The notes beneath the pieces were generated by a model. It saw only the letters and a list, made by a program, of their open reading frames with translations. It had not been told where the DNA came from and did not search any database. From a virus, in IMG/VR virus record IMGVR_UViG_3300027917_000153, positions 1 to 27,678 of that record: 27,678 nt of DNA; one strand, written 5' to 3'. The position numbers were made by a program, and so were the translations under genes. The first letter of the stretch is position 1; each line of letters opens with the position of its first letter. Positions 1 through 22,920 of the stretch are shown in pieces.

Positions 1-281
1 CCGAAGTCTTTGATGGCTCCGGAGGACTTCTTCTTCAGACGGACGAGGTAGTGAAACTGCCGGTAGATGTTGGCGTTCTTCAGGGTGTTGTCCACGAAGA
101 TGTACTGGTCGTCCATCTCGGAAGACAGGGGCTCGAAGGGGCCAGCCGCTGCTTCTGACCGCAGGATCTGGAATGTGTAGTCGAACACATCCTCTGTTGT
201 GTTCGCTACCTCCCAGGTGATCTCGTTGAAGTCGACAGAAAGAGATCGGACCCGGATGTTCCGAATCTCGAGCATGCTCAT
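1..281 (-). CDS. Fibronectin type III-like protein, N-terminal part (runs off the left edge)
   Basis: Ninety-three residues are visible before the window ends. The start ATG (279-281) overlaps the stop of the upstream gene as ATGA; a second Met two codons later (273-275) is an alternative start. The sequence has the look of a fibronectin type III beta-sandwich: an early ITWEV strand, a YTFQILRS strand, a GPFEPL turn, FVDNTLKN and a YRQFHYLVRL strand. Such domains are common on phage tail, baseplate and fibre proteins, where they bind carbohydrate or serve as spacers. Its place after two large virion-like proteins fits a tail or virion accessory role. Domain call from pattern only; the remainder of the protein is not visible. 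Confidence 0.65.
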   Translation of the reverse strand, partial: MSMLEIRNIRVRSLSVDFNEITWEVANTTEDVFDYTFQILRSEAAAGPFEPLSSEMDDQYIFVDNTLKNANIYRQFHYLVRLKKKSSGAIKDF

Positions 282-2164
282 GACGGCTCTATGAACTTTC
301 CTACTCCGCCGATTGCCTTGCCAACCCCGCCGCCAATCGTGCTGCCGGCAGCCTGTACGCCCTTACCGATCAACGTTCGCGGTATCTGGGTGATGTCCGC
401 AAACTTGGTGGCCTTGCCGAGCACGTTGCTTACGGCAGGACCGGCTACGTTGGGGAGGACCTTGCTGGCTACGAACCTGCCCGCTGCGGCGAGAAAGGCC
501 TCCTTGTCCAGCTCCACGTCAAAAGGGCGGATTCCTACCCTCACAGCGCTGGCGTACTTGACCGGAACCGTGAGCTCGTTGAAGCGAGCGGCTGCCGTGA
601 CTGCACGTTCGAAGGAGGGGGCCGGGGCTCCACCGCCAAACATGCCTCGGACCTTTCCTGCCATACCCTCGAGGGCCCCGCGTAAGGTACCTCCACGCAT
701 AGCCTTACCTGCTGCCTCGAGCTCGCCGGCGCCCACGGGGGCATGCTGGGCAACTTGTGCGGCGTCTCGCCCTAGATGCCCAGTGGCTCGCAGGATGTGC
801 TCGGGAACTCCAGGAACAGCCTGCCCTTCGTGCATGAACCCGCCAAGGAGCTTGGCTCCTCCGCCACCGCCCCCACCACCAGGGAGATGCGCGCCGGAGG
901 TGACGCGGCTTGCTCCACGGCGCATAGCGCTACCGAGGGAAGAGCCGAACCAGGCCAGCTTCTGAACGGGCTTCTCCTCCTTCTGGCTCTCCTGCCCCTT
1001 GCCCAAACCCAGCCTCTTCTCGGCCTTCCTCTGGGTCTTCTCCGGGATGACGTCGGAACGCGTGGCGAGAGCTGGGTACTTCTTGGTCACGGCCTTGTAG
1101 ACCGAGGCCTTCTCCGAAGGAGATCCGAACTGCCGAACGCGTACGAGGGCGTTACGGGCATGCGCCGCATCGGGGATCGGGTACTTCGGCTCCTCGCCCT
1201 TCGGGTGGACTGCGAAGTTCTTGCTCTTGACTTTGTCCCGCTGAGCAGGGGTCAGGTCAGCAGCGGTCTTCTGAAGGTCTGCTGCGTCCGCCGCATGCTT
1301 GTACAACGCGTGAGCTAGCGAACGCCCTGCCAGATCTACGTAGTCGACAGAGGCGGTCTTTGGTGGCGCGGAGTTATCGGCAGAAGCCGCCTCTCTCTGT
1401 GTCTTCTTCTGATGCGCAGACCGCTCTAGAGCCAGCGTCAGCGCGTTGGTAGCTGCCCCTAATCCGGCTCCAACACCACCACCAATCAAGGCACCTTTCC
1501 CGCCCCCGAGAAGATACCCACCCAGTGCTCCGCCTGGCGCACCAGCCGTTACGCCTTTCAGCGCCGACAGGCCGTACGCAGGCAGAGGAGAGGCATCCAT
1601 CCACTTCTGCTTCTCTTCGGCTTTTCGCTGCTTCTCTTCGGCTTTTCGCTGCTCCTCTTCGGCTTTTCGCCGCTCCGACCTCTCCCGCGACCTCTCTCGC
1701 TCTCTCTCCCAGTCCTCTTTACTATAAAAGAGCCCTGCAGCCTTCGGAGTCATCTCAGGCTCTGGGGTCTCCTCGTGCTCGTCGTCGTCGTCATCGTCGG
1801 GCTTACCGAGGTTGGACTTAGCGAGGTCGAGGTCGAGCATCTTCTTCTTCAGGCGGATCATGTCCTCCTGAGCCCAGAAGTCGTCTTCCTTCTTCTCCAT
1901 CCGACTCTTGATGCGAGCCGCCTCGACGTTGAGCTGCTCCTCCTCGAGCTGCATGGCTTTCTCGTACAAGGGCGTTCCCTCGTACTGCTTGAGCCACTTG
2001 TAGTCCTCGGGTCCGCAGTACGCGTTCTTGATGGTGGCGATCTCGGAGGCCACCTTCGTGATCTCTTCTACCGACCCCAGCTTCTTGAACTGCTCGGTGA
2101 GCTCATCCTCGAGAGTAGCCTTGTTGTCGTTCTGCACCAGAATTGCGGCGAATGCGTCGAGCAT
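278..2164 (-). CDS. Large probable virion protein with glycine zipper and charged coiled coil
   Basis: 628 aa. I do not recognise a family. Order of segments: a charged alpha-helical N-terminus (about 1-120), a run of seven Asp, a highly charged Arg/Glu coiled coil with three tandem RKAEE(K/E)Q repeats (about 160-190), a glycine-zipper hydrophobic stretch (about 200-247) that could insert in a membrane, then a long Ala/Gly-rich low-complexity part with an eight-glycine run and further helical segments. It contains the Lys-Thr-Ala motif twice (PPKTASV and LQKTAAD). The start is supported by an AAGGG ribosome site 7 bases upstream. It follows the 982-aa protein by 4 bases and both share glycine zippers, so they are likely co-translated and may act together, for example as internal or DNA-ejection proteins (inference). 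Confidence 0.85.
   Translation of the reverse strand: MLDAFAAILVQNDNKATLEDELTEQFKKLGSVEEITKVASEIATIKNAYCGPEDYKWLKQYEGTPLYEKAMQLEEEQLNVEAARIKSRMEKKEDDFWAQEDMIRLKKKMLDLDLAKSNLGKPDDDDDDEHEETPEPEMTPKAAGLFYSKEDWERERERSRERSERRKAEEEQRKAEEKQRKAEEKQKWMDASPLPAYGLSALKGVTAGAPGGALGGYLLGGGKGALIGGGVGAGLGAATNALTLALERSAHQKKTQREAASADNSAPPKTASVDYVDLAGRSLAHALYKHAADAADLQKTAADLTPAQRDKVKSKNFAVHPKGEEPKYPIPDAAHARNALVRVRQFGSPSEKASVYKAVTKKYPALATRSDVIPEKTQRKAEKRLGLGKGQESQKEEKPVQKLAWFGSSLGSAMRRGASRVTSGAHLPGGGGGGGGAKLLGGFMHEGQAVPGVPEHILRATGHLGRDAAQVAQHAPVGAGELEAAGKAMRGGTLRGALEGMAGKVRGMFGGGAPAPSFERAVTAAARFNELTVPVKYASAVRVGIRPFDVELDKEAFLAAAGRFVASKVLPNVAGPAVSNVLGKATKFADITQIPRTLIGKGVQAAGSTIGGGVGKAIGGVGKFIEPS
1607..1669 (-). 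repeat. Three tandem 21-bp in-frame repeats
   Basis: The unit ctgcttctcttcggcttttcg occurs three times end to end (1607-1627, 1628-1648, 1649-1669), with one substitution in the third copy. It encodes the repeated heptad-like peptide RKAEEKQ in the coiled coil of the 628-aa protein. Likely the result of replication slippage in coding sequence; not a CRISPR or regulatory repeat. Confidence 0.9.
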
Positions 2165-2168
2165 GGTT

Positions 2169-5117
2169 CTACCCTTTTCTCTCCTGCTGATAGCGGTCCC
2201 AAGCCGGCCTGAGGCCTTGTGCCCAGGCCTGTCCTCGACCAGCTGCTGTTTCTAGGGCGTGCCCCTGCAGCGCACCAAGGACGGCCCCCTTAGCGGTGGC
2301 GCGCAGCCCATGGCCCATAGGTTGGGACTGCTGAAGGGAGACCTCAGCGAACTGCTTCCGCGCCTTTGCAAGCTCGGCCGCGTGCCCATAGCTCCCATCC
2401 TGGGTCTGCTCTAGAACCTGGATGCGGTCTCGGAGCTCCCCGGGGTTGGCGTTGGACATGACTGCCGAGTCGTAGAGCCCCTTGGCTCCACCCACGAGGG
2501 TCCCTGCGGCAGCACCCCAGGGCCCTGCCAGCTTCACGGACGACTGCTTGGTGGCCATCTGGCTGGTGGCTGCCGGCTCATTGCCTGCGGCTCCACCGGG
2601 GCCTGGAGGCCCTCCCGCGTTAGCGTTCATGTCAGGAGAGCCGGCGCCAGGAGCTGCTCCCGGAGGCGTATTCGGGGGTGGCGCCTGCCCCGCAGGCCCC
2701 TCGGCGCCAGGTCCTGGCATCATCCCCGCATCCGGAGCTGCCGCCTGAGCCGCTGCTTGGCCCTCCGCCGCCGCTTGCTGAGCAGCCTGCTCACGGCTCT
2801 GGTTGGTCACTTGCTCGAGCTCCTGAGCCGCTACAGCCACGGGATCCTGGCTCGAGAGCTCGATCATCTGCTGACGAAGCTTCTGCATCCCCATTCGCAT
2901 GTTCGCAGCCAGCTGAGTCTGCTTCAGTGCCTCGTCGCGAGCTTGTAGGGCCTCCCCCGTCGCAGACTCTATTTTCTGCTGGGCCTGGTCGGCCTGCTGC
3001 TGGAGCTCCATCAGCTGCTGCTGGGTCTGCTCCATTTGTTGCTGGCTCGTCTGCATGGCTTGCTGGGCCTGCTGCATTGCCGACTGAGCCCTCTGCTTGA
3101 AGAACTGGATCTCGTTGGCATGCTGCGCCTGCTGCCCCATCTGCTCGGCCATCAGGTAGTTGGGGGCCTGGAGCTCAGGGCGATCCGTAGGCGTAGCCAT
3201 CGGAGCTTCCGCCTCCATGGGCTCTTGAGCGAGCTTGACCCTCGAGGCCATGCGCGAAGCGAGCTTGGAGAGCGCCACCGAGGCGCTCTTCTTTCGGTAG
3301 ATGTCCGCTTCCGTTCCGAGCTCACGACCTGCTTTGCCCCCTAGGAGGTACCCGAGAGCAGCGCCACCGACCGTTCCGATGGGCCCCTTGCCGTAGAGGT
3401 GCCCCAAGGCAGCGCCGCCGGCGGTTCCCACGGCTCGACCCATGACATCCCCCAGCCGCTCACCACGCTGGTGTCGGGCTAGGTTCTCTGCTCGAGCGGC
3501 CCCTTGAATAGCCGACAGGCGCCCCTTGGTAGCCTGGTCAGCCACAGCTTCGTTGATCTCATCTGCCGTCATAGGTGGCTTGGCCGCAGCAGCCTTGGGC
3601 TCCATCTTCTCGGCCTCGCGCTCTGCTATGGCCTTGTCGAGGTCACGAGTGGCCAGTCTGTAGCCGCCGTACCCACCCAAAGCTGCGCCAGTTAGCCCGC
3701 CAAGGGCTCCTCCGATTCCAGGAACCCCAAGAGCCGAACCAACAGCAGTGCCCCCCAGCGCTCCCAGAAGTGCGCCTCCACGCCACCCCACCCCGGTACC
3801 AATCAAGGCTTTCCTACCAGCAGTGTTTCTTGCGGCTTCGAAATCCTCGTAGCTCATAGGCCCCCCAAGGTATGCGCGCTCCGCCTTTCTGCGTCCGGCG
3901 CCCCGCCCCTTCAATGAAATGAGCGCGGTCACAGCCACCTTGACTGCAGCAGTCTTGGGCTGGCCGACACCACGGGTCATGTAGTCGTACCCGCTCATCC
4001 CTCCCTTGACCCCTCCGTAGAGGCCGCCCCCTACGGCGCCGGCGCCGCCACCGATCAGAGCCCCATAGAGGGGGTTTGCACCGAGAAGGGCTGCCCCACC
4101 GGCGCCAAGAAGGGCACCGCCGACACCACCAGAGATGCCTCCAATGGTCGCCCCACCATGAGCTCCCAGTCCCCCTCCAAGAGCGCCACGTACGGCACCC
4201 TCCATCCCACGGTCATAGTCGGCACCCTTACGGAAGCCGGCCATGCTGCCGAGAGTACCGCCAATCGTACTGGCGAGACCGGGTTCAAGGCCCTGCTCGT
4301 AAGCGATGTCCATGGCCTTGGAGGGAGCACCCACCATCAGACCGAGAGGCATGCTGCCTGCAGCCGTCTTGGCCATGGCAGTGACCGAGTGCTCTGGGGG
4401 CTCGACGCCCGCAACCTGCTCGGCGGCCTCGAACTCCGGGCTCTCGAGCGCCTCTTGCTCAGGAGTCTCCGCCTGCTCATGACGAAGCAGGTGCATGGGC
4501 TTTCCCGGTGCCATCACTTTCTCGCCCATCAATTCGGCAGGACAAGCCCGCCAGAGTTCGTCGATGTGCTTCTGGCAGTCAGCCATGCAGCACATGACCT
4601 GCTTCTTCATGGGGTTCTCCCCCAGGACCAGCTTGAGCTCGTGAAGGGTGTGGACCATCTCCTGCTCTGCCCGGATCATCCTCTTGGCGATCTCGACGGG
4701 CTGAGTGCTAGGCGGAGGGGACTCGGGGTCTGCCAGGTGCGGAGCTCCTGCCAGGATAGACATCCGTTGGATCAAGAACTCGAGGGTGCCCCTGTGGTCC
4801 CACTGTCCAGACTCCAGAACGCAGCGAACCTCTTTGGCGAAGGGGCCACGAACGCTGTTCGAATAGATGAGGCTGGCGTTGAGCAGCCGCATCAACTGCG
4901 TAGCGCAGCGTCCCATGAGGGCTACAGCGTGCTCGAGAGGAACCTCGAACTGCCCCTCGAGAAGGCCCGTGTCGTCCGGCGGGTCCTGCCATCCTGCCGT
5001 CTTGTCCATCCCAGGAGTCGAAGAGAACTTCTTGACCGAGATGAAGAACGCAGCGGCATCCGCAATGGGGACACTTCCACACTTCTCGACCGCTTCTTCG
5101 AATGCACGCTTGGTCAT
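2169..5117 (-). CDS. Large probable virion protein: ferritin-like domain, three glycine zippers, Q-rich coiled coil
   Basis: 982 aa. Residues about 58-192 read as a four-helix ferritin-like bundle: helix 1 ending in YSNSVRGPF, helix 2 ending in LIQRMSILAGAP, helix 3 with RAEQEMVHTLHEL, helix 4 with ADCQKHIDEL. Usual iron ligands are only partly kept (E151 and H184 remain; the Glu three residues before H184 is Cys), so iron oxidation is doubtful. Three glycine-zipper segments follow (about 292-377, 437-487, 557-599), then a Gln-rich coiled coil (about 655-772) and a Pro/Gly/Ala-rich tail. It carries Lys-Thr-Ala three times (MDKTAGW, MAKTAAG, PKTAAV). A GGAG site lies 5 bases before the ATG, and its start overlaps the upstream stop by 4 bases. 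Membrane-active zippers and low complexity suggest an internal head or ejection protein; this is inference. Confidence 0.85.
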   Translation of the reverse strand: MTKRAFEEAVEKCGSVPIADAAAFFISVKKFSSTPGMDKTAGWQDPPDDTGLLEGQFEVPLEHAVALMGRCATQLMRLLNASLIYSNSVRGPFAKEVRCVLESGQWDHRGTLEFLIQRMSILAGAPHLADPESPPPSTQPVEIAKRMIRAEQEMVHTLHELKLVLGENPMKKQVMCCMADCQKHIDELWRACPAELMGEKVMAPGKPMHLLRHEQAETPEQEALESPEFEAAEQVAGVEPPEHSVTAMAKTAAGSMPLGLMVGAPSKAMDIAYEQGLEPGLASTIGGTLGSMAGFRKGADYDRGMEGAVRGALGGGLGAHGGATIGGISGGVGGALLGAGGAALLGANPLYGALIGGGAGAVGGGLYGGVKGGMSGYDYMTRGVGQPKTAAVKVAVTALISLKGRGAGRRKAERAYLGGPMSYEDFEAARNTAGRKALIGTGVGWRGGALLGALGGTAVGSALGVPGIGGALGGLTGAALGGYGGYRLATRDLDKAIAEREAEKMEPKAAAAKPPMTADEINEAVADQATKGRLSAIQGAARAENLARHQRGERLGDVMGRAVGTAGGAALGHLYGKGPIGTVGGAALGYLLGGKAGRELGTEADIYRKKSASVALSKLASRMASRVKLAQEPMEAEAPMATPTDRPELQAPNYLMAEQMGQQAQHANEIQFFKQRAQSAMQQAQQAMQTSQQQMEQTQQQLMELQQQADQAQQKIESATGEALQARDEALKQTQLAANMRMGMQKLRQQMIELSSQDPVAVAAQELEQVTNQSREQAAQQAAAEGQAAAQAAAPDAGMMPGPGAEGPAGQAPPPNTPPGAAPGAGSPDMNANAGGPPGPGGAAGNEPAATSQMATKQSSVKLAGPWGAAAGTLVGGAKGLYDSAVMSNANPGELRDRIQVLEQTQDGSYGHAAELAKARKQFAEVSLQQSQPMGHGLRATAKGAVLGALQGHALETAAGRGQAWAQGLRPAWDRYQQERKG

Positions 5118-6724: not shown

Positions 6725-7843
6725 CTAGTTGGCAACCACCTGCGGGAACTTGAGCCCCTGGTCGACCCGGTTGTTGACCGCACCGAGCGAAGCCTCGGCC
6801 ACCGGGATGAAGTTCGACAGCAGGGCGTCCGCATCGTTGGCCGATGCGTCACCGCTGTAGAGCTCGATCTTTCGGACCGATGCGATGTTGATGACCGCCA
6901 TGCCGATGTCCTCCCAGGCCTGGAAGGTGATCATGTTGGCGACCTTGTCGATGTAGAACTTCGTTTGGTTCAGGATGTAGAACTTCCCGAAGAACTCCGG
7001 CGACGTGAAGAAGTAGATGTTGCCCGGACGGAGGATGTCCGTCTTGACCGTGCGGATGTACGGACGGCCGAGCAAGGTGTTGTACTTGTAGCCGTCGACC
7101 GTGGTCTCCGACTGGATGCGGTCGCCATTGTCCTCCACGGTCCAGCCCAGGATGTCATCCCAGTCCGGCTCGGTGATGAGGAAGCGCTCCGCACGCAGGC
7201 GGTTCCGGTCGAGCAGCTTGAAGCCCTCCTTGATGTCGACACGCTGCAGAGGACGCACCGTGGCATCGTCTGCACCGGCGGTACGGGCGAGCTCACCCTT
7301 GCGGATGGAGAACTCTACGGCGGTACCCGCATCGACGCTGGTCCAGTTGAGGTTCGTGACAACACCACCATTGGCTTCCTGCTGGAGAGCCTGGCAGGCC
7401 GCTTCGATGTGGATCACGAACTCTCGGTCCTCGATCTCCTGAATGTCCTTCACCGAGTTCTCTTCGATGATCTTGGTGATGGGCATTTCGTAGGCCAGGA
7501 GCTCCTGCTCCGGCTTCTGGAAGATCTCCGAAGAGATGGTGAAGAAGCCGACCTCCGCACGAGGACCACGGATGAAACGTGCCGTGGGCTTACCTCGGAA
7601 AGAGATGGCCATGGCCCGACTCTTCGGCTCCACGTCCACGATCTTCACGAGAGTGTCGTGCCTGGTCGACCGCTGGCAGTCGGTGCGCGTGACCTGCTCC
7701 GGCGGAAGGATCTTCCGCACGAAGCTGACCTCACGCAGCTTGTCGCGGATGTAAGACCCGCCGAGCTGCGCCAGCTTCTCCTTGCCTCCCGGCTCGCTGA
7801 GCCGAGTATTGAACAGCGCGTTGAAACGAGCGCCCGATGCCAT
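6725..7843 (-). CDS. Major capsid protein (HK97-fold type)
   Basis: 372 aa, the expected size. The N-terminal third has the usual order: a helical start, then SYIRDKLREVSFVRKILPPEQ, which corresponds to the helix leading into the E-loop region. A long spine helix region (EQELLAYEMPITKIIEENSVKDIQEIEDREF, EAACQALQQEAN) follows. Near the C-terminus, FFGKFYILNQTKFYIDKV, then MITFQAWEDIGMAVINIASVRKIEL, is the P-domain pattern seen in many major capsid proteins. A strong AAGGAG lies 8 bases before the ATG. The gene is set off by 66 bases upstream and 107 bases downstream with a hairpin terminator, unlike its tightly packed neighbours, which fits high, separate expression. Decoration and scaffold-like genes lie directly upstream in the same operon. 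Confidence 0.88.
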   Translation of the reverse strand: MASGARFNALFNTRLSEPGGKEKLAQLGGSYIRDKLREVSFVRKILPPEQVTRTDCQRSTRHDTLVKIVDVEPKSRAMAISFRGKPTARFIRGPRAEVGFFTISSEIFQKPEQELLAYEMPITKIIEENSVKDIQEIEDREFVIHIEAACQALQQEANGGVVTNLNWTSVDAGTAVEFSIRKGELARTAGADDATVRPLQRVDIKEGFKLLDRNRLRAERFLITEPDWDDILGWTVEDNGDRIQSETTVDGYKYNTLLGRPYIRTVKTDILRPGNIYFFTSPEFFGKFYILNQTKFYIDKVANMITFQAWEDIGMAVINIASVRKIELYSGDASANDADALLSNFIPVAEASLGAVNNRVDQGLKFPQVVAN

Positions 7844-8475: not shown

Positions 8476-8862
8476 TTAGCCGACACTTCCGTTGATGAAC
8501 CGCGCGAACTCACTGGAAGCGTCGCCTCCAGCTGACCCATCGTCCTCGCTGATGAAGGCGCCCTTCATCATGTCCGGCCCCGTCATGTCGAGGGCCAGCT
8601 TGATCTGCTCCAGCCTTCCGGCCGCAGCTTCCTTCTCGAGGTACTCGGACAGGGTATCGAACGGAACCTCCGTACGGACACCCTTGGAGTGCATTTCTGC
8701 TGCCACCTTCTCCGCTTCCATGCGGCGGAGCAGTGCAGTGTTCTGCTCCTGGAGGCTGGCCACCTTCTCTCGATAGGTGTCCCGCTCGTGCGCGATCTTC
8801 TTCAGAGTCGCTGCACTGTCGGCAGCTAGCTGTGCGATCTTGTTCATGTCCAGCTTCGCCAT
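8476..8862 (-). CDS. Small coiled-coil protein, scaffold-like
   Basis: 128 aa. Residues about 10-60 form a continuous charged helix (ATLKKIAHERDTYREKVASL, then NTALLRRMEAEKVAAEMHSKG), consistent with a coiled coil, followed by an acidic short helical domain (FDTLSEYLEKEAAAGRLEQIKLALD) and a Gly/Asp-rich tail. GGAGG lies 6 bases before the ATG. A small helical protein just before the decoration and capsid genes is the classic place for a scaffold or assembly chaperone, but no family signature confirms this. It has related tripeptides (KIA, KVA) but not Lys-Thr-Ala. Confidence 0.82.
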   Translation of the reverse strand: MAKLDMNKIAQLAADSAATLKKIAHERDTYREKVASLQEQNTALLRRMEAEKVAAEMHSKGVRTEVPFDTLSEYLEKEAAAGRLEQIKLALDMTGPDMMKGAFISEDDGSAGGDASSEFARFINGSVG

Positions 8863-8874
8863 TCCGTCCTCCGA

Positions 8875-11115
8875 TTACATCCCACCGGCGCCGCCGCCGG
8901 CGGCATTGAAACCACTGGCCTGCGAGGGCGTGGTAGCCAGACCCTGAGAGCGCTTCTCCTTCTTGTCCTTCCCGCCCATTTCTTCGGCGAGCTTGGAGAG
9001 GATGGCGCGAGCTGCCGCTACCCGAGTGATGGACGAGATCTTGGCACCGGCAGAGTCCGTGTGCTCCACAGTCTCATCGAGAACCTTGTCGGTGCCGCTC
9101 GTCTGAGCCGGCTCGGTCAGAACATCACCAAGGTCCGACTTGGGGTCCGACTTGGCGTCACGCTTGGTGTAGTTGATGGCCGACTCGTTGGAGCTCAGCA
9201 TCCTCCGCTTCTGTGCGCTGACGTCACTCGGCTCGCTTGGGACCTCTTGTCCCGCCGGCGCTGCACCGGAAGGAGCCTGGGGGCCTACGGCGTCAGCCTT
9301 GCCGGCGCTGATCTGAGCAGGGTTGATGGCGTCCTCGGCCTGCTTGTAGAGACCGAGCACCATGAGGTTGCGGGCCGACAGTCGCGCCGAGGCGGCCTTG
9401 GCAGCTTCCATATCCTCGGGGGGTGCCTCTTCGCCGCCCTCGCCCCTGCCCATCAAGGCCTTGGCGCCTCGATAGGCACCGTAACCTAGACCGGCCAAAC
9501 CAGCCGCCGCCCCCGCTCCGAGGCCTACGCGACCGAGAGTGGACTTCGGAAGGTGACTGAGCAGTCCCTTGGCTGCTGCCACTTCTGCCGGTGCCGCATG
9601 CTCTGCAGCTGCGGCCGCCGGGGCAGCACCCAGTCCCTGGAGAGTGGCGCCGACGGACTCGAGCTTGGGGGCTCCTCGACCGACACCGAACTCCGCCATG
9701 TTGGGGGGCGCCAGGTAGGGAACCGTGGCTGGGCCCGTCTCTGACATCAACGTCTGCGCAAGATCGCTGGCCGGCATCTTCGGCAGAGCCGGAGGACGCT
9801 GACCCGGCGCACCACGGAAGAAGGCTCCGCCCGATGGAGGTGCCATGCCGGCCGCTTCGTAGACCGCGTCTGGCGGTGGGCCGATGAAGTCCGCAAGCTT
9901 CCTGACCGACGCAGTCTTGGGCTCCTGCGCCGCCCTTGCCTGCCCGCCGGCTCGAGCGCGCTGGAACCCAGAGTAGGCTCCCTTCGCCGCACCGGCCGTG
10001 CCTCCAGCTAGGGCGCCACCGGCGCTACCTACTCCTGCACCTGCCATACCGGCGAGCCCCGCACCAATGGCGGCCCCAGGAAGGCCACCGGTCAGACCAC
10101 CGATACCTGCTCCGACCAAACTGCCCAGTGCGCCGCCACCCACGCCACCAGCAAGACCACCCTTGACCGCACCAGCAGCGCCACCATAGGCACCGCCGCC
10201 AGTGGTAGAGCCAACGTAGGAGCCAAGATCGGAAGCGCCAAAGGCCTGCTTCACGAGCTCGTTGGCCGGCTCGAGATAGAGTTGACCGTTACGCGCCTGC
10301 GCCACCTTGACCAGACCCATGCTGATCAGGTTGTTCACGTAGGCCGACGAGGTCTTCTCGTTGGAAATGGGCTCCACGGGCTGCTCCCCGTGCATCATCG
10401 AGATGTTGGTCTCCATGGAACCACCTGGGTCGCCCTTCTGCCCAGGAAGCTTCTGAGTCGCCGGCGCCATCGGGGGCTTGTGGTGAGCCTCACCCGTCTG
10501 GTTGGCGTCGATGTTGTCCTCGGTGGGCAGCTTGCCCTTGTTGGTCTCGAGGGCGTTCGGACCCTGCCCCGGCCCCATATCCGTCGTTTCCTCGGCGATC
10601 TTGGGGTTGAGTGAGCGCGCAACGTAGTCCAGTGCGCTTGCCAGCTTGTCGATGTACTCGGTGGGGATCTCGTACTGCTGCTGGGCAGACGCAGTCTTGG
10701 TCGTACCCGGCAGTACGGCGCCGGTCTCGGCAACCTGTCGGGCACTTTCGAGGCTGAGGTCGACCTTCGCCGCACTCGCCTCCATCGCGGTCTTGATGAA
10801 GTCGTGCAGGGTGGGTCGGGGCATAGCCGTGGTCGTCATGAAGGTCTCCAGTTGGGCCGTCTTAGGAAGAAACTCCGTGCCGAGAGGTGCCATCGATTTC
10901 TGCTGCGACTGACCTGCATCCGGCGTCGGGGGTGTTCCCGTGTTCACTCGGGAAAATGTCTGTCGTCCAGCCAGACCCTTCGGGCCCCGTTGGCCCGGGG
11001 GTGGCTTGTTCTCGAATGCCGTCTGAGGGATGGGAGCCGTGGCAGCAGGAGCGGTCGACGGGTCCGGAAGACCCGATCCCATCGATGCTCCTGCCTTGGT
11101 GAACCATCTCTCCAC
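8875..11115 (-). CDS. Large internal/scaffold-like virion protein with glycine zipper
   Basis: 746 aa. The start is GTG at 11115, chosen because GGAGAG lies 2 bases upstream; a Met 11 codons inside is an alternative. The N-terminal 300 residues are Pro/Gly/Thr-rich and look disordered, with short helices. Residues about 298-382 are a long glycine-zipper, nearly free of charge, and could span or fuse with a membrane. A second small zipper (LGAGAAAGLAGLGYGAYRG) lies near 530-550. Lys-Thr-Ala occurs four times (PKTAQL, IKTAME, TKTASA, PKTASV), plus one KTS variant, the highest count in the window. Such a repeat of short linear motifs in a disordered protein between protease and capsid genes fits a protein processed during head maturation (inference). 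Confidence 0.85.
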   Translation of the reverse strand: MERWFTKAGASMGSGLPDPSTAPAATAPIPQTAFENKPPPGQRGPKGLAGRQTFSRVNTGTPPTPDAGQSQQKSMAPLGTEFLPKTAQLETFMTTTAMPRPTLHDFIKTAMEASAAKVDLSLESARQVAETGAVLPGTTKTASAQQQYEIPTEYIDKLASALDYVARSLNPKIAEETTDMGPGQGPNALETNKGKLPTEDNIDANQTGEAHHKPPMAPATQKLPGQKGDPGGSMETNISMMHGEQPVEPISNEKTSSAYVNNLISMGLVKVAQARNGQLYLEPANELVKQAFGASDLGSYVGSTTGGGAYGGAAGAVKGGLAGGVGGGALGSLVGAGIGGLTGGLPGAAIGAGLAGMAGAGVGSAGGALAGGTAGAAKGAYSGFQRARAGGQARAAQEPKTASVRKLADFIGPPPDAVYEAAGMAPPSGGAFFRGAPGQRPPALPKMPASDLAQTLMSETGPATVPYLAPPNMAEFGVGRGAPKLESVGATLQGLGAAPAAAAAEHAAPAEVAAAKGLLSHLPKSTLGRVGLGAGAAAGLAGLGYGAYRGAKALMGRGEGGEEAPPEDMEAAKAASARLSARNLMVLGLYKQAEDAINPAQISAGKADAVGPQAPSGAAPAGQEVPSEPSDVSAQKRRMLSSNESAINYTKRDAKSDPKSDLGDVLTEPAQTSGTDKVLDETVEHTDSAGAKISSITRVAAARAILSKLAEEMGGKDKKEKRSQGLATTPSQASGFNAAGGGAGGM

Positions 11116-11130: not shown

Positions 11131-11919
11131 TCAGCTGAAGACCTGATTCCAGTCGACCGGGTACCCAGCAGCCTCGAGGAACTCGAGACCACGAACGTTC
11201 ACGGCAGCGTCGTAGTCACCTGCGACCTGCGCAACCTTGGTCTGCTCACGGCTGGGGCCACCCAGCACGAGCACCGCGCTGATCTTCTGGACCGCTTCCT
11301 CGACGTTGATGCCGGAGGCCTGAGCGATCTTCACCGCGTGTTCTGCCGCTACCTGGTCGAAGGCGCTGGCTTCCTTCTCGCCCTCCGACTCCTTCTTCTG
11401 GAACTTGGCCTTCAATCCGCTCATCACGTTCTTGGGGTTTGCAGCGTGGGCGGCAGCCATGCCCTTGGCCTTCAGGCGGTCCTTGAGGGAGGCCTCCTCT
11501 TCGGCCTTCTTCTCGATCTCGCCGGACTCGTTCCAGAACGCATGCGCCATGGTGCGGCCGAGGAAGTCGGCTTCGGCAACCTTCTGCTGCCATTCGTGCA
11601 TCTGCGCGACCTCGCGACGCGCCGCGGCTTCCTTCTTCTCTTCTTCCTTGCCCTCTTCCTCTTCGCCCTCCTCCTTCTCCTTGGACTCCGCCTTCTCGTG
11701 CTCGGGGGTCTCTCCCTCTTCGTCCTCGGCGAGCTTGGAGATGAACTGGCTGTAGAGGTAGTTCTGCTGCTCCGGGTTGAGCTGGGAGAGATCGATGCCC
11801 TCGGCCGCCGCCGTCTTGGCGAAGAGCTCGAGGCTGGCGATCTTCATCTGCTCCTCTTGGACGGCCTGGCCGTACCCGAGAGTGTTGTACATCGCAGCGA
11901 GGTGGGGATTCATGCTCAT
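11131..11919 (-). CDS. Acidic/charged helical protein, scaffold-like
   Basis: 262 aa. The ATG at 11919 has GGAGAAG 8 bases upstream, preferred over an in-frame start 24 codons earlier. After a short N-terminus with MKIASLELFAKTAAAEG (one Lys-Thr-Ala), LSQLNPEQQNYLYSQFISKL forms a helix, then residues about 72-110 are almost entirely Glu and Lys. The remainder is helical and Ala-rich. Highly charged, low-complexity, helix-rich proteins placed between protease and capsid genes are typical of prohead core or scaffold proteins; that is the best guess, without a family match. The 85-bp gap before the gene is longer than usual here and contains a small hairpin. Confidence 0.85.
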   Translation of the reverse strand: MSMNPHLAAMYNTLGYGQAVQEEQMKIASLELFAKTAAAEGIDLSQLNPEQQNYLYSQFISKLAEDEEGETPEHEKAESKEKEEGEEEEGKEEEKKEAAARREVAQMHEWQQKVAEADFLGRTMAHAFWNESGEIEKKAEEEASLKDRLKAKGMAAAHAANPKNVMSGLKAKFQKKESEGEKEASAFDQVAAEHAVKIAQASGINVEEAVQKISAVLVLGGPSREQTKVAQVAGDYDAAVNVRGLEFLEAAGYPVDWNQVFS

Positions 11920-12004: not shown

Positions 12005-13681
12005 TCATGACGTTTCTACCACTGTCCCTGCAGAATGTGCAATCGGCGCCTCATTGAGGAAAGCGTCACGCAAGTAGCAGTAGGACAACGGGGTGAATGC
12101 TTCTTGTGCAGACGCCGCTGCTACCTTCAGCAATTCTTCATCTCTTGGCATTGCTGCCTTTTCGATGAGGTCTTGAGAGTTAGCGACGACGTCCATGAGT
12201 TGAGCTCGATATGCTCCGTAAGCCGATCCAATCTTACGGAGTAGTTCTGAGGGATGGGAAGAAGGGGGCCCTACTTCTTTCTTTGGACTAGAAGAAAGAA
12301 TCGTCACCCGCTTTTCTATGAACGGACCTAGTGCAGACCTCAGACCCATGAAGGGCGCGAGCAAGCGGCCGATACTGGGGAGGAACTTACTGGGGTCTAG
12401 GCCCAAATCCCCGCTGTCTGGAGCGGTTTGAGGAAACACCACATTGTGCCGCTCGAGCTGGTCAGCCAGGGGTCGGCAGCCCATGCGAATCAGCGTGATG
12501 CGCTGAAACTCAGAAGGGCGAAGAACAATACCCATCCCAGCTGTACTGCTCAGCGCCTCATCCTGCGGTAGGGCAGCTAGCAGATCCTGAATCTCTGGGG
12601 GCAGAGGAGGCTCGTTCTTTGTGAGGAGAGGGACAGCCTTCGCAGCGAGCTGATCGGGAACAACTTCTTTCTCGATCTCACCCTTCTTCTCCTCGGCACC
12701 TTTGGTGAGCGCCACGGTCCATTCGTCCTCTACCTGCGCAGTCTTCAGTAGGACTAGTTCTTCTACTTCCCGGTACCCAAGAACGTGGGCCACCTTAGCG
12801 CTGGGCTCCGAAGGTTGGTTTTCCCTCGCAATGTAGACCAGGGTCTTGGCCGTTCGGTCTGCACCAATGAACACGAAAGAGATGTCGAAGAAGCGAGGGT
12901 AGTCGTTGTAGACGAACACCTTCCTGCCGTCCGGCAGGATCTTGTTCATGTGCTTGGTGCACCACTCGTCGTAGTCATCACGGGTGATGCTTACTCCTCG
13001 AACCCCCACGCCGTCCTTGGCCTTGAGTCTCTTGTGGTACTCGAGGACCGCCACACCTGGGTGCCGGTCCTTCTTGGGGTCGAATGTAGCCTGCGCTTCC
13101 CGGTACTTCTTCCAGTCCAACGTGATGGAGCTCGTGTCATAGGGGACTTTGGAGCCCATCGATACATCAGGGAATTGACCGGCCTTTAGCTTGTCCCAGA
13201 CTGCAGTGCCGCCAAACTGCTGGCACTTCTCGTAGTCGATACGAACGACGAGCTCGACCCGCTTCATCGTATCGTTCCAGAGAGAAAGCTCTACCTCCCC
13301 ATACGCCCTGCTGGGGTCCTTGTTTCTGTGGTGGGCGAACGGATGCGCGTTGTAGAACGTGAGGTAGCCGTACTGGGCCTGCTTTGCTAGCGCCCGGTCG
13401 ACTAGGGGGTTCCCCGTCGCCCCCGGCGGAGCGTGGATGAGGGCCGCCTCTGGAAAGTGGTCGCCGTTGATGTTGGAGCCGAAGTACTCCCCGGCCCCCA
13501 GAGCATTGACCAAAACGTACTGAGAGCTCTTTCTCGGGCGCAGCCCCTCGATGTAGGACAGGACAGGAGGTAGAAGGTACGCCGATGCGGTCTTCTCGAA
13601 CTCCTGGTCTGCCTTCCCGAAGAGAGGAACAGCTGTGTAGCCAAGCTCGTTCCTGGCAGAGAAAGTGCTGACCTTGAGCAT
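12005..13681 (-). CDS. Probable prohead maturation protease with long C-terminal extension
   Basis: 558 aa. The N-terminal 200 residues show the pattern of phage prohead core proteases: NINGDHFPE (about 70-78), TFYNAHPFAHHRNKDP with candidate catalytic His 117 or 118, then YGEVELSLWNDTMKRVELVV, and PDVSMGSKVPYD with candidate nucleophile Ser 174. These enzymes cut scaffold and capsid proteins inside the prohead. A domain with YPRFFDISFVFIGADRTAKTL (about 265-285) completes the core. The remaining 270 residues are a helical extension not needed in short proteases. Lys-Thr-Ala occurs twice (FEKTASAY near residue 30 and LLKTAQVE near 315), possibly self-processing sites. The gene sits between structural genes and upstream of the capsid gene, the usual position. 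The protease call is by motif recognition and could be wrong in detail. Confidence 0.7.
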   Translation of the reverse strand: MLKVSTFSARNELGYTAVPLFGKADQEFEKTASAYLLPPVLSYIEGLRPRKSSQYVLVNALGAGEYFGSNINGDHFPEAALIHAPPGATGNPLVDRALAKQAQYGYLTFYNAHPFAHHRNKDPSRAYGEVELSLWNDTMKRVELVVRIDYEKCQQFGGTAVWDKLKAGQFPDVSMGSKVPYDTSSITLDWKKYREAQATFDPKKDRHPGVAVLEYHKRLKAKDGVGVRGVSITRDDYDEWCTKHMNKILPDGRKVFVYNDYPRFFDISFVFIGADRTAKTLVYIARENQPSEPSAKVAHVLGYREVEELVLLKTAQVEDEWTVALTKGAEEKKGEIEKEVVPDQLAAKAVPLLTKNEPPLPPEIQDLLAALPQDEALSSTAGMGIVLRPSEFQRITLIRMGCRPLADQLERHNVVFPQTAPDSGDLGLDPSKFLPSIGRLLAPFMGLRSALGPFIEKRVTILSSSPKKEVGPPSSHPSELLRKIGSAYGAYRAQLMDVVANSQDLIEKAAMPRDEELLKVAAASAQEAFTPLSYCYLRDAFLNEAPIAHSAGTVVETS

Positions 13682-13696: not shown

Positions 13697-14173
13697 CTAG
13701 TAGTCCGGCTTGATGAAGCCCGGCTTCTGCGCACCTGAGAGCACAGCCTGCTGCATCGGTCCCATTTGGGGTGTGCGGTAGGCCTTCGAGATCTCCATCA
13801 GAATGTTCGAGGTGGCTTCCGGCTCGTCCATCATCCGGGTCATCAGCCCGCCCGCTACCAAAGGGTCCTTGCCGAAAGCTGGGTTCAACCGACGAAGAGA
13901 AGAGTAGGTCTGGTTGAACCGGGGCCCATCCGCCTTCTGGTACGACTGCAGCTGCGGATTGTGCTGCATCATGTTGTTGAACTCATGCCTCTTACTGATG
14001 GCCCCATAGAGCTTCTGCGCTGCGGGTACAGCTGCAGCTGCAGCAAGAGAGACGCCCGCACCGATGGCGGCACTGCGGAGGTCATGCCCCAAGGCTTCGG
14101 AGTGCCCGAAGAAACCCGTCCAGAACCCCGCCGCTTCCTTGTGTAGAAAGTAGTCGTCCAACGGGTTGCTCAT
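13697..14173 (-). CDS. Small virion-region protein with one membrane-like segment
   Basis: 158 aa. The ATG at 14173 shares its A with the upstream TGA stop (TGATG), and GGAGG precedes it; a GTG one codon earlier is also open. The N-terminus has HKEAAGFWTGFFG, followed by an Ala-rich hydrophobic stretch (AAIGAGVSLAAAAAVPAA, about 36-53) that could be a membrane helix or an amphipathic insertion segment. The rest is helical, with LQSYQKADGPRFNQTYSSL and an LNPAFGKDPLVAGGLMTRMM pattern. I do not recognise the family. Coupling to the 328-aa gene suggests the two proteins are made in step and act together. Confidence 0.8.
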   Translation of the reverse strand: MSNPLDDYFLHKEAAGFWTGFFGHSEALGHDLRSAAIGAGVSLAAAAAVPAAQKLYGAISKRHEFNNMMQHNPQLQSYQKADGPRFNQTYSSLRRLNPAFGKDPLVAGGLMTRMMDEPEATSNILMEISKAYRTPQMGPMQQAVLSGAQKPGFIKPDY

Positions 14174-15159
14174 CACGCCTCCAGCTGCTGGTCTGCCAAA
14201 CGAAGGAAGGCGCCAACCTTCTCTTCCATTTCGAGGATCTCGTCACGGGCAGCACGGATGTGCGCCATTTTGTTCAGGGTCTCACAGAAACCCGCGAAGG
14301 TTTTGACGATGGGGTGCTCCGAGTTCGTCAGTAGCCGCGCGCTCGCAGTCTTCTCGAGGCTGGCGCCCAAGGACTCGAAGCCTTCGAACACCCCCTCCTC
14401 GACCAGACGGTTGCCGAGGACGGCGAAGGCGAGCTTCACATGCTCCTTCTCGGGTTCCAAAACCTGCGCCCAGGCCTGGACGATGTGGCCGAGTGGCACG
14501 CCGGCGGCGGCGGCCTGCTTGACCTGCTGGTACAAGGAGTCCTGGATGTCTCCGAACAGAACCTCTAGCTCGCTGAGCTCGGAGGTGGCTGCATCTCGCG
14601 CCGTCGCAAGCTTCTGCTGCGCATCCTCGATGTCTGCCAGTGGGTTCTCGTAGGGGTAGTCGGAAGCGGCCGCTTTGAAGGCCTCCTCGAAAATGTCAGG
14701 CCCGCTCACTGGGCGGCTGATGGAGGCCACCTTCTCCAGGGCCCCCATGTTCCGTTCTGCCAACCGGATGTGTGCGGTCTTGATGGCTGCCGGCGGCTGC
14801 GCGTAGTCTCCCAGCCCCCGGTCAAAAACCGTACCCCCGCCCCCGTCGTTCAGATCCTTCAGGACCTCTGAAGGGCTCGCTAGCCCCTCCTTGAAGAAGA
14901 CGTACTTATGCGGCTCAGCCGTCTTGTTGAACTCGCTGAGGAACGCGTGGGTGTTCGTGAACTCCACGACTCTTCGTACTTGTTCCGGGCTGAGACCAGC
15001 GTGCTTCACGGTCTCTACTACCGCCTGGTTGAGAGACGAATAGTCCCCCGAGTGGAAGCACATTGCTGCCTGCTTGCCCATCGTCTCCAGCTCCTCGCCG
15101 GAGACCGGGCGGGCCGCGTGTTGCTGCAGCAGAAGCTGGGAGGGCAGTTCGTTGCTCAT
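14173..15159 (-). CDS. Probable head structural protein, helical, function unknown
   Basis: 328 aa. The ATG at 15159 is chosen over an upstream in-frame start because AAAGGA lies 6 bases before it and the upstream extension would overlap the divergent gene. The protein is nearly all helical: AGLSPEQVRRVVEFTNTHAFLSEF near the N-terminus, a KEHVKLAFAVLGNRLVEEG helix, and a C-terminal MEEKVGAFLRLADQQLEA. Lys-Thr-Ala occurs three times (FNKTAEP, IKTAHIR, EKTASAR). It is the first gene of the head block after TerL and the divergent helix-turn-helix gene. A prohead core or portal-associated role is plausible but unproven. Confidence 0.85.
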   Translation of the reverse strand: MSNELPSQLLLQQHAARPVSGEELETMGKQAAMCFHSGDYSSLNQAVVETVKHAGLSPEQVRRVVEFTNTHAFLSEFNKTAEPHKYVFFKEGLASPSEVLKDLNDGGGGTVFDRGLGDYAQPPAAIKTAHIRLAERNMGALEKVASISRPVSGPDIFEEAFKAAASDYPYENPLADIEDAQQKLATARDAATSELSELEVLFGDIQDSLYQQVKQAAAAGVPLGHIVQAWAQVLEPEKEHVKLAFAVLGNRLVEEGVFEGFESLGASLEKTASARLLTNSEHPIVKTFAGFCETLNKMAHIRAARDEILEMEEKVGAFLRLADQQLEA

Positions 15160-15207: not shown

Positions 15208-15912
15208 ATGGGAAGAAATGCGTTGCTCACCGTTGCCGAGGTAGCGGAGATCCTGGAGATTACCCCTACATCGGTTCGAGCGTTGACGCGAAAGGGGCTG
15301 CTTCGTCCGCACCACCCTGCGGGAAGACCCCTAGACGCCGCCATGTTGTACCGTCCGGCGGAGGTGGACGCGTACCAAACGGCGAGAAACAACGTAGTCA
15401 AGATCGACCTGGTCACAGCCTACAACAAAGCCCTCAAAGTAGAGGTCATGCTCTACGCACTCGAGCAGCGGCTGGCACAAGTAGAGCTGATCTCTGGAAT
15501 AGATGTTCCCAAGATTCCCTACAATGAGACGGCCGTCCGCTCTCTGGTGTCTCAAGTACAGGAGGCAGCAGAGCATCCACCTACAGACGCCCAGGAGGTC
15601 ATGAAGTGGGCTGGGGTATTTCTAGCGCTGCACGAAGAGTTCTTCGACCTGGTGGAGCGGTATACCAGTCACCCCAAGCCATGGGAGCCCTTCTACCTAC
15701 TAGGGCGCGCAATCCGAGAAGCGCAGCCGGTGGAGGGCATGGACCTCCCCCACGAACAGGCTTATCACTACTTCAACGCGGCCTACATTGTTCTGCGTCA
15801 GAGCATGACTCTGTATATCCACCACCGATACGGGCGTAAGAGAGTGAAGCAGGAGTTTCCAGAAGAGGCAGACCTCTTCCTAGAACGCGTCTTCCGCTTT
15901 CTACCCCGCTAG
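15208..15912 (+). CDS. Helix-turn-helix protein: candidate small terminase or regulator
   Basis: 234 aa on the strand opposite to its neighbours. Residues about 7-50 are a MerR/excisionase-like winged helix: LLTVAEVAEILEITPTSVRALTRKG, then a wing and YRPAEVDAYQ. The remaining 180 residues are helical with many Leu, Tyr and His and no known domain. Small terminases such as lambda Nu1 have a similar N-terminal fold, and TerL lies immediately alongside, but on the opposite strand. The stop overlaps the TerL stop on the palindrome CTAG (15909-15912). There is no clear ribosome site before the ATG; a TTG five codons in has GGAAG 7 bases upstream. TAATAT at 15189-15194 resembles a -10 box, without a matching -35. 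A transcription regulator is the main alternative. Confidence 0.82.
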   Translation: MGRNALLTVAEVAEILEITPTSVRALTRKGLLRPHHPAGRPLDAAMLYRPAEVDAYQTARNNVVKIDLVTAYNKALKVEVMLYALEQRLAQVELISGIDVPKIPYNETAVRSLVSQVQEAAEHPPTDAQEVMKWAGVFLALHEEFFDLVERYTSHPKPWEPFYLLGRAIREAQPVEGMDLPHEQAYHYFNAAYIVLRQSMTLYIHHRYGRKRVKQEFPEEADLFLERVFRFLPR

Positions 15913-19973: not shown

Positions 19974-20012
19974 GGCGCTCCGCAAGGGGCGCCAGAGGGC
20001 CGAAAGGCCCTC
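19974..20012 (+). other. Two tandem hairpins with GNRA tetraloops
   Basis: Right after the stop of the 68-aa gene: an 8-bp stem with a GCAA loop (19974-19981/19986-19993, one G-T pair) and a 7-bp stem GAGGGCC/GGCCCTC with a GAAA loop (19995-20001/20006-20012), separated by one base. The G-T pair and the GNRA loops make sense only on the plus strand. There is no T tract, so they may protect the mRNA 3' end or serve as a weak terminator or processing site. Confidence 0.65.
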
Positions 20013-20074
20013 CTTCACTAGCTACAAATTCCGACCCTACACGGCATAACAACTGTGGAGGAAGGAGAGAAGAA

Positions 20075-20209: not shown

Positions 20210-20246
20210 GCTGACGCAAGTCAGCTCTAGGGGCCTTCGGGCCCCT
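20208..20246 (+). terminator. GCAA hairpin plus UUCG-loop intrinsic terminator
   Basis: An 8-bp stem (20208-20215/20220-20227) with a GCAA loop starts inside the stop codon of the 44-aa gene. One base later, AGGGGCC/GGCCCCT (20229-20235/20240-20246) closes a TTCG loop followed by TT (20247-20248). The second is a typical plus-strand terminator with a short T tract, and its stem could also stop minus-strand transcripts coming from the 885-aa gene, which ends 17 bases away. Confidence 0.8.
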
Positions 20247-20262
20247 TTCGCTAGCTAGGAAT

Positions 20263-22920
20263 TTACGCTCCCTGGAACGCTAGAATCTTCAGGCCCTCGA
20301 TCGTCTCTTCGGTAGAACGAATCGCACGCTCCAAAGAAGACTGAGGGATATTCTGCAGGCCCAGACGTGCAGCAAGAAGGAGCTCACAAAGCTTGCTCTG
20401 CGCGTCCTCGATGTCCGGCAGGTAGCTCACGAACGTCAGGATGTTCTCGGGGTTGATGAAGCCCAAGCTGAGAACCGTGTCGACGATCGAGGGGTCGGGG
20501 AAGTTGGCCGCCTCCTTGAGCATGTGCGGAGTCTTGAGCTGTGGGAACCGAGACAAGAAGGCTTCCGCCTTTGCGCTTGCCTCCTTCTGCAGCTCGCTCT
20601 TGAGCCCGATGGCTCGACCCGTCTTGATGCTAATCGGAGCGTCCGAGTAGGCCGCGTGCGCCAGCTTCTCAGCCCCATAACCCTGGTGGGTTCCCAGGCC
20701 GCTCAGCAGGAACATCGCGTCGTCTACGTCGAGATCTTGCTTCTGGTCTCGAGCAAGCTTCTCGACCGGCACTCCGGAGAACGAGAAGAGTTGCCCGTCG
20801 GAGCGGACCACGACGTGGCTCTCTTTCTCCTCCATCTCCTCTGGCGTCTCGGTCTCGACTGCAGCCTCCCCACCCACGAGACCTACGGCCTGGGAGTTAG
20901 TAAGCGGCAGCCAGGACCAGCCTTCGGGAACCAGGACGCGGCCATCCGGCGTCGACATCACGGTCTTGATGTTTGGCTGGAGGCTGACCTCTACCGGAGT
21001 TCCGTCGAAGGTCTCACCGTTGAAGACGCCAGGCTCTCCGGGCATCGAGAAGGAGCCTCCGAGCTCGAAGGGGATGGTCATCTGAACCTTCCCCTCGGCA
21101 TCCACGGTGTAGAAGGCACCATGGCCACCCACCTTGCCGCTGGGGAGGTTTCCACCTGCGCCGGCAGGCTCGCCCAGGATATCTGCCTGGACTGCGCTCA
21201 CCGTGCCGTTGGTGAAGAGCTGCAGTGGCAGTGGCTTCCCGTCCGTATCCAGGAGGTTCGGTACTACGAAGCCTACGTGCTCCCGCCCGAGCTCGTCTCG
21301 CACCTTGTAGAGTCCGAAGTCCGAGATGGGACGGAGGTCCGTCTTGGTGTCGCCGCCCTCGGCCGTGGCATCCTCCGCCAGAGTCACCGCTCCGTTCATG
21401 TCGACGTCAGCAGCGATCTTCACCCCGAACCGCTCGACCACCTCACCACGACTGATGAGGGCGCTCTTGGGATCCCAGAGCAGATGGCTCGCCTCCTTGA
21501 CGATGTAGCCACCCGGAACGTGTTGGATCTGCACAACCGTGGGGCGCACGAGCCCCTCCCAGGACGCCTCCTTCAGAAGAGGGGCAGGCTCCGCGTCTAC
21601 GATCCTGAAAGCCGCGTCGAAGATGGTCTCTCGGTTCGCGTAGATGTCAGCAGCGCACTTCTCTACCTCTAGACAGAAGTTCGCATGATCCGTACGGTTG
21701 ATAGTCGGCAGGATGGCCTGAAGGATGGAGGCGGTCTTCTTTTCGGCCATCGCCTTGTCTACATAGGCATTCCTGGCCAGCTCTTTTTGCCTGAGCTCAC
21801 GGATCTTACCGCTACCCGGAGCGAGGACATTCCGAATGTCGAACGCACTCTTCTCTTCCTCCGGACCGATGTTGGGGTGCGGGCGGCCCCACTTCTTCTC
21901 GTCCCACTCCACACCAGGACCACCATAGTCCTTCTGCATAGCACTCTCGAACGCGAGGTTGTGCTCAAGAGCATCCGGCGGAGAGTACGATGCAACATCA
22001 GCAGCATGCGTGGGGTCTAGCTGGTACTGCTCCGTAAGAGCCTCCACAACCCCCGGTGCGTGGCTGTATGCGGCGGGCTTCGGCTTGGGGGAGAACCAAC
22101 CCGCCTCCTTACGAGCCTCTTCATCCTCTGATGTAGCAAGCAGCACCTTGGACCCCCAGTGCTTTTTCGCCGCATTCATCTGTGAGAGAAAATCGTCTCC
22201 GCCCTTGTAGAAGTCGGACAGAACATCCTTGTGTATAGATACGACGTCGCCGTTTGGCAGCTTGTGGTGGGCGAAGTCCTCGTGCTTCATCCCACTGGGA
22301 CCCCCTGTTAGTACTACGGTAGCCGCTTCCTTAGCCTTCTCGTCCTTCTCCACGTACTCCTCGAGCGCGGAGCCCATCTTCCCGATGCCCATACCGCCGC
22401 CGGCGTTGAACGCCATGCCACCACCACCGAACCCGTAGTTCTGACGGTACGGGGGATAGAGCTGCCCGATCATCGACTGATCGCCAGGAGTGCGGCTGGT
22501 AACGTCGAAGGCCTGTGGGCGGAAGATGGCCTGGCGCAGCCGGTTCTCCGTCAACGGCAGCACCCTAGAGCTGTCGGTGACCAGGAGATCGAAGGGGCTG
22601 AGCTTCGACTGCTTGATCACGAACGGGATGCGAACAGTGCGAACGCCCGTTGCCTCGAGCGCTTGAGGGTCCGTCTCGTTGGGCGCCTCAGTCTGGTTCT
22701 GGATCTCGATGTGCCCAATACCGTACCCCTGCTCGGCATCGACCTTCTGCATCTCTACATGGGGCTGGAAGTCAGAGATGTAGGGGACCTGCTTGTACAG
22801 CTCCTGCAGGATCTCCTGCGGCCACTGGTTGGGGTCCTCGGGAAGGTCCACCTCGCCGGCAGTCTTCTCCAAGGCCTCGAGAACTTCTGGTTCGAAGAAG
22901 AGCGGCTCGGTCATGGTCAT
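20263..22920 (-). CDS. Large probable virion protein with many Lys-x-Ala motifs, function unknown
   Basis: 885 aa. The N-terminal 170 residues include IGHIEIQNQTEAP, VRTVRIPFVIKQSKLSPFDLLV, PLTENRLRQAIFRPQAFD and a Gly-rich segment (FGGGGMAFNAGGGMGIG, about 160-175). A middle part (about 180-390) is charged and helical. A beta-rich region (about 480-690: DFGLYKVRDELGREHVGFVV, FYTVDAEGKVQMTIPFELGG) follows, then a helical end. Lys-Thr-Ala occurs twice (LEKTAGE, KKTASIL) and related KEA, KLA and KIA tripeptides many times. The ATG at 22920 overlaps the upstream stop as ATGA; a Met two codons later is possible. It lies after the baseplate spike genes, so a tail or baseplate role is likely, but the shared motif also ties it to the head proteins. 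No family recognised. Confidence 0.85.
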   Translation of the reverse strand: MTMTEPLFFEPEVLEALEKTAGEVDLPEDPNQWPQEILQELYKQVPYISDFQPHVEMQKVDAEQGYGIGHIEIQNQTEAPNETDPQALEATGVRTVRIPFVIKQSKLSPFDLLVTDSSRVLPLTENRLRQAIFRPQAFDVTSRTPGDQSMIGQLYPPYRQNYGFGGGGMAFNAGGGMGIGKMGSALEEYVEKDEKAKEAATVVLTGGPSGMKHEDFAHHKLPNGDVVSIHKDVLSDFYKGGDDFLSQMNAAKKHWGSKVLLATSEDEEARKEAGWFSPKPKPAAYSHAPGVVEALTEQYQLDPTHAADVASYSPPDALEHNLAFESAMQKDYGGPGVEWDEKKWGRPHPNIGPEEEKSAFDIRNVLAPGSGKIRELRQKELARNAYVDKAMAEKKTASILQAILPTINRTDHANFCLEVEKCAADIYANRETIFDAAFRIVDAEPAPLLKEASWEGLVRPTVVQIQHVPGGYIVKEASHLLWDPKSALISRGEVVERFGVKIAADVDMNGAVTLAEDATAEGGDTKTDLRPISDFGLYKVRDELGREHVGFVVPNLLDTDGKPLPLQLFTNGTVSAVQADILGEPAGAGGNLPSGKVGGHGAFYTVDAEGKVQMTIPFELGGSFSMPGEPGVFNGETFDGTPVEVSLQPNIKTVMSTPDGRVLVPEGWSWLPLTNSQAVGLVGGEAAVETETPEEMEEKESHVVVRSDGQLFSFSGVPVEKLARDQKQDLDVDDAMFLLSGLGTHQGYGAEKLAHAAYSDAPISIKTGRAIGLKSELQKEASAKAEAFLSRFPQLKTPHMLKEAANFPDPSIVDTVLSLGFINPENILTFVSYLPDIEDAQSKLCELLLAARLGLQNIPQSSLERAIRSTEETIEGLKILAFQGA

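Follow-up and report, generated by a model that had tools for sequence, protein, structure and literature searches.

Head genes of the window and the motif they share

The window, which is the whole stretch analysed here, comprises 27,678 nt of the record IMGVR_UViG_3300027917_000153. Its head genes run in the order 328-aa, 159-aa, protease, 262-aa, 746-aa, 128-aa, 175-aa, and capsid protein, and this order is largely kept in relatives. The eight proteins that carry the motif described below (Table 1) are head proteins of a large uncultured phage. A MerR/excisionase-like HTH gene (15208-15912, +), located between the terminase and 328-aa genes, runs opposite to the block, and its homologues stand beside the head genes of relatives. 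A beta-prime-like RNA polymerase gene (24757-27678) runs off the window end; the homologous frame of a relative (G002, 76429-84339) is one ORF of 2636 residues, which suggests fused polymerase subunits. Glycine-zipper-like stretches, with Gly at every fourth residue (z 11), were observed in the 628-, 982-, and 746-aa proteins and resemble membrane-inserting proteins.

Table 1. Positions of the motif-carrying genes, candidate modules, and protease sites in the window (K-x-A, Lys and Ala separated by one residue; K-T-A counts in brackets).
Feature	Position	Strand	Basis
628-aa internal protein, 11 K-x-A (2 K-T-A)	278..2164	-	counts, homologues
phrog_16160 domain, residues 302-352 of 628-aa protein	1109..1261	-	directly after K-T-A 1262-1270
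982-aa internal protein, 12 K-x-A (3 K-T-A)	2169..5117	-	counts, homologues
Ferritin-like module, residues 60-196 of 982-aa protein	4530..4940	-	profile match
Major capsid protein, K-x-A not enriched	6725..7843	-	phrog_2522
128-aa scaffold-like protein, 7 K-x-A taking 7/10 Lys (no K-T-A)	8476..8862	-	counts, homologues
746-aa internal protein, 13 K-x-A (4 K-T-A), glycine-rich repeats	8875..11115	-	counts, homologues
262-aa acidic, scaffold-like protein, 9 K-x-A (1 K-T-A)	11131..11919	-	counts, homologues
558-aa predicted prohead protease with C-terminal helical domain, 7 K-x-A (2 K-T-A)	12005..13681	-	AlphaFold model, phrog_18299
K-T-A at protease residue 313, linker after catalytic domain	12737..12745	-	K313 and A315 nearly invariant
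Predicted catalytic domain, protease residues 47-291	12809..13543	-	model; H117, H118, S174 invariant
K-T-A at protease residue 30, N-terminal to catalytic domain	13586..13594	-	K-x-A kept in Arash, D69
328-aa core protein, 11 K-x-A taking 11/17 Lys (3 K-T-A)	14173..15159	-	counts, homologues
885-aa protein, 15 K-x-A (2 K-T-A)	20263..22920	-	counts, homologue family

The first-pass annotation had reported 17 Lys-Thr-Ala (K-T-A) tripeptides in seven large proteins and none in the capsid protein, TerL, spike, beta-prime, or the small proteins. Recounting returned the same 17, confined to the same seven proteins, and zero in the others. The following residue, described there as usually S, A, G, or Q, was Ser in six cases, Ala in four, Gly and Gln in two each, and Met, Glu, and His in one each. 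The variation of the Thr codon was also found as stated (six ACC, six ACT, and five ACG); the Ala codons are mixed, and Lys is AAG in 17/17. The shuffling check proposed with the annotation, performed per protein, resulted in significant K-T-A counts in five carriers (328-aa, p <0.001; 746-aa, 0.001; 982-aa, 0.007; 558-aa, 0.011; 885-aa, 0.02) and marginal ones in two (628-aa, 0.053; 262-aa, 0.072).

The motif itself had to be redrawn: the real motif is K-x-A, and K-T-A is its favoured form. The looser forms that the annotation had noticed are present in the same proteins, although they are not separate but belong to this one motif. The eight proteins together contain 85 K-x-A against 39.3 expected from shuffles of the same proteins (z 8.3), whereas 22 were seen and 20 expected in the remaining proteins of the window. 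When all residue pairs and spacings in the window were ranked, K-x-A was outranked only by Gly at every fourth residue, which is the pattern of the glycine-rich stretches. The 128-aa protein, which has no K-T-A at all, holds seven K-x-A where 1.6 were expected. The 628-aa count was not significant singly but became so with pooled homologues.

Conservation of K-x-A in related phages

In a viral contig collection, 219 relatives of the capsid protein were identified, located on contigs of up to 195 kb. Homologue counts for seven carrier families were taken from the genes around 80 of these relatives; the homologues are non-independent, and the genes were called by longest ORF. K-x-A reached 4.6 times expectation in the 128-aa family (68 homologues), 3.9 in the 328-aa family (50 homologues), 2.15 in the 262-aa family (53 homologues), and 2.1 in the 746-aa family (57 homologues). 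The 558-, 628-, and 982-aa families followed with ratios of 2.0, 1.6, and 1.4, and TerL homologues stood at 0.46. K-T-A was 5 to 14 times over expectation in these seven carrier families. The 885-aa family, counted separately, had a K-x-A ratio of 3.4 (72 seen against 21.4 expected). Homologues of the 167-aa protein had a ratio of 2.65, yet with approximately one site per protein. The K-x-A excess across homologues from dozens of relatives shows that the tag is kept in related phages.

In the alignments, the Lys and Ala of K-x-A are better conserved than the middle residue. Counted from the Lys, the sites favour E/D at -4/-3, L/F/M at -2, and E/V at -1; T/V/L/I/Q occupies the middle position, and the Ala is followed by Ser (3.8-fold) and then A/V. 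The full motif is about [LFM]-[EV]-K-[T/V/L/I/Q]-A-[S/A/E].

The whole genome of a closer relative (L105) was also analysed, and its leading K-x-A proteins are mostly homologues of the same carriers. One further gene, outside the window's gene set (L105:12876-14318, -), encodes a 480-aa protein with the strongest excess in that genome (14 K-x-A against 2.8 expected); it matched no known family and is probably another internal head protein. The same genome also has a K-x-A-rich Lys/Ala-repeat protein of different character, and a helicase-like ORF (G002 95339-98155) that, judged by eye, seems to carry an intein-like insert at the ATP-binding loop.

Among named phages, only Salmonella phage Arash and Vibrio phages D69, D181, and D148 were found with the capsid or the protease, at approximately 27-30% identity for the capsid and 31% for the protease. 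In the Arash head block, K-x-A was the top-ranked pair (44 seen against 19.8 expected), whereas the genes outside the block in this whole genome showed no excess (192 against 239). By single proteins, gp220, gp225, gp223, and gp242 lead, and the protease gp222 is sixth. K-x-A likewise ranks first in D69 (54 against 24.7). Scanning the viral contigs with a single protease sequence gave no match, whereas protease alignments found 277. We added 19 further diverged loci, their proteases mostly 40-57% identical. K-x-A took rank 1 in ten of these loci and lay within the top 26 of 2280 in 19/19; together they hold 938 against 511 expected. The sole bacterial-genome match for the protease, on a contig of a deltaproteobacterial metagenome assembly (L111), is a hint at the hosts of the phage group.

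The 558-aa protease and the placement of the sites

The annotation had counted the putative prohead protease among its own carriers. An AlphaFold model of the 558-aa protein, built from 32 sequences (mean pLDDT 74), had T4 gp21 (5jbl) as its best Foldseek match (prob 0.97, E 0.095), and VIA-align against 5jbl gave Z 8.4 and an rmsd of 2.7 over 131 residues. The next structural matches were the VZV, PRV, HSV, KSHV, and HCMV proteases (Z 4-7), with approximately 14% sequence identity in the alignments with herpesvirus proteases. By sequence, phrog_18299 ('head maturation protease') matched weakly in 5/32 homologues, no Pfam protease family matched among the 32, and the PDB returned no sequence match. 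Although the E-value by itself would be weak, the ranking of matches, the weak phrog_18299 match, and the gene order agree, and the protein, which bears two K-T-A of its own, is predicted to have the T4 gp21/herpesvirus capsid protease fold. H117, H118, and S174, the presumed catalytic residues, show no variation and stand in His-Ser order.

Besides its two K-T-A, the protease has K-x-A at residues 296 and 327 of the linker. The pLDDT is below 50 over residues 1-36 and 291-344, which hold sites 30, 296, 313, and 327; as modelled, the protease's own sites probably lie in flexible stretches flanking the catalytic domain. In the homologues, the K-x-A ratio is 1.16 within residues 37-285 versus 2.76 outside. 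The equivalents of the K30 site read GLTKQAAA in Arash and GLEKSAAA in D69. The proteases of relatives have variable inserts in the linker region, around residues 291-344. In one homologue (L059), the linker is occupied by a Pfam InPase domain, which lies between GEKVA and LEKIS and contains one further K-D-A. Visual inspection of the linker of another (L014) suggested ART-like and ParB-like segments, but these were unconfirmed, the best phrog ParB match having an E-value of 0.077.

Inteins split the protease genes of several relatives (L001:3359-6163; L014:2308-5976, equal to G002 62821-66492; and L007, L017, L030, L038, L040, L070, L075, and L080), and the window's copy is without one. The L014 intein matched Pfam LAGLIDADG_3 and an intein splicing domain, and the others were judged by size and place. 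The insertion lies directly after the presumed catalytic S174-M-G in G002 and near residue 68 in L001.

Pfam Ferritin matched two homologues of the 982-aa protein, and a profile from these matches the window protein, in which K-T-A stands on either side of the ferritin-like module (4995-5003 and 4362-4370) with no K-x-A inside. The domain occurs in 27 homologues. Of these, 14 were examined singly, and in 14/14 K-T-A precedes the domain by approximately 20 residues and another K-x-A follows it; inside the domain, all 27 together have 19 K-x-A against 15.4 expected. The ferritin-like and InPase domains and the placement of the phrog_16160 domain suggest that cutting at K-x-A would free modules. 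We also looked for a repeated cargo module across carriers; none was found in the 25 largest insert clusters, all of which were confined to a single carrier family.

The 328-aa model was well predicted (pLDDT 84). Some of its sites fall in a disordered loop or at the ends of helices, and approximately 4/11 are within helices predicted with confidence. Cutting therefore need not occur at all sites, although a scaffold that is cut may itself be helical. The window capsid has one K-x-A near its N terminus (7769-7777), and the Arash and D69 capsids have theirs within a residue or two of it; the window site, GGKEKLAQ, lacks the hydrophobic P5.

Proposed cleavage by the phage's own protease and comparison with known systems

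The first-pass annotation had offered a prohead protease cleavage site or a capsid-targeting tag. The computation supports the former: K-x-A is, with good confidence, the site that the phage's own gp21/herpes-type prohead protease recognizes and cuts. We infer cleavage at K-x-A, the exact bond, and the roles of the products as follows. The cut probably falls after Ala, with Lys at P3, Ala at P1, and Ser/Ala at P1', by analogy with the herpesvirus Ala|Ser bond and with the P3-x-P1 layout of T4 (L/I-x-E) and SPN3US (A-x-E, P1' Ser; PMC10052503). During head maturation, the protease would release itself by cuts flanking its catalytic domain. It would also cut the small core proteins of 328, 262, and 128 aa into peptides and would trim the large internal proteins (982, 746, 628, and 885 aa) or split them into modules. 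A more tentative extension treats the large internal proteins as polyproteins, together with the protease in some relatives; ferritin-like, pyrophosphatase-like, and other enzyme modules between K-x-A sites might be cut loose in the head and delivered to the host along with the DNA, which we regard as possible rather than likely.

The targeting tag fits worse. As a docking signal, K-x-A would be bound uncut by shell, scaffold, or protease for recruitment into the prohead, and the restriction of the carriers to head-block proteins, with RNA polymerase, TerL, and spike not enriched, would agree with that. However, a protein may have up to 15 copies spread along the chain, the sites stand on both sides of folded modules and of the protease's catalytic domain, and the P3/P1 layout with P1' Ser resembles known cleavage motifs. 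T4 targeting peptides, moreover, are short N-terminal propeptides (PMC9026906). We therefore consider docking unlikely.

Still less probable is a by-product of composition or helix structure. The carriers are Ala/Lys-rich and partly helical, with several sites at predicted helix ends, and such proteins could yield K-x-A by periodicity or helix-end preference. The shuffles, however, preserve composition, and the excess is specific to i+2: in the homologues, K+1, K+3, K+4, and K+5 had ratios of approximately 0.5 to 1.55, with no excess at K+1 and a weak one at most at K+3 and K+4. On these two grounds, composition and helix periodicity were rejected as the cause. R-x-A and K-x-G were not enriched in the homologue families, the marked preference for Ser at +3 and for Leu/Phe/Met at -2 also argues against a helix effect, and the head proteins of T4 (20 K-x-A against 13.9 expected) and SPN3US (39 against 33.8) have little excess. 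That a host protease or a second phage protease cuts K-x-A is the least credible alternative, since the 558-aa protein has the predicted prohead-protease fold and conserved sites of its own, and the motif surrounds its homologue in every relative tested, among them L111 and the Salmonella and Vibrio phages.

The group is abundant and uncultured, with approximately 220 capsid relatives in one viral collection. The motif would let sequence predict internal head proteins among unknowns, together with the positions of the cuts, and it suggests that internal proteins are modular and have removable enzyme parts. In the open-access literature, we found neither K-x-A processing nor phage Arash described. 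The specificity of a protease can be revealed by blind counting of gapped pairs in head proteins. In a positive control on T4 gp67, gp68, gp21, and gp22, the same ranking placed I-x-E first and L-x-E third, the sites at which the T4 protease cuts after Glu (PMC9026906). In SPN3US, A-x-E reached 2.3 times expectation in gp54, 2.4 in gp51, and weakly 1.3 in gp53; the strength of the statistic thus differs among systems.

Like T4 gp21, its best structural match, the 558-aa enzyme is encoded beside scaffold and capsid genes, the motif consists of P3 plus P1, and the core proteins have many sites. It differs from gp21 in its greater length, its long linker, and its C-terminal helical domain, and K-x-A would take the place of cutting after Glu. 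We rejected a Glu-type motif for the carriers, since L/I-x-E, A-x-E, and S-x-E had ratios that were mostly 0.8-1.3 and never above 1.7, whereas K-x-A had 2.0-4.6 in the five strongest families. Lys-x-Ala is very probably a cutting rule different from the after-glutamate rule described for T4 and the giant phages, whose proteases SPN3US gp245 (A-x-E, P1' Ser preferred) and phiKZ gp175 (S/A-x-E) all cut after Glu (PMC5694885, PMC10052503). As predicted here, several internal head proteins are cut in those phages and the protease undergoes C-terminal self-processing (PMC5694885, PMC10052503). Their sites have no Lys at P3, which K-x-A has.

The herpesvirus capsid protease (assemblin) cuts at an Ala/Ser site, written Ala|Ser, with few sites per substrate and without Lys at P3. 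As in assemblin, the protease is followed by a linker and a further domain, with sites at the junction, and the bond would be of the Ala|Ser type if its assignment is right. The site that the group appears to use, Lys-x-Ala|Ser/Ala, is close to the herpesvirus Ala|Ser sites, and the proteases have a shared predicted fold.
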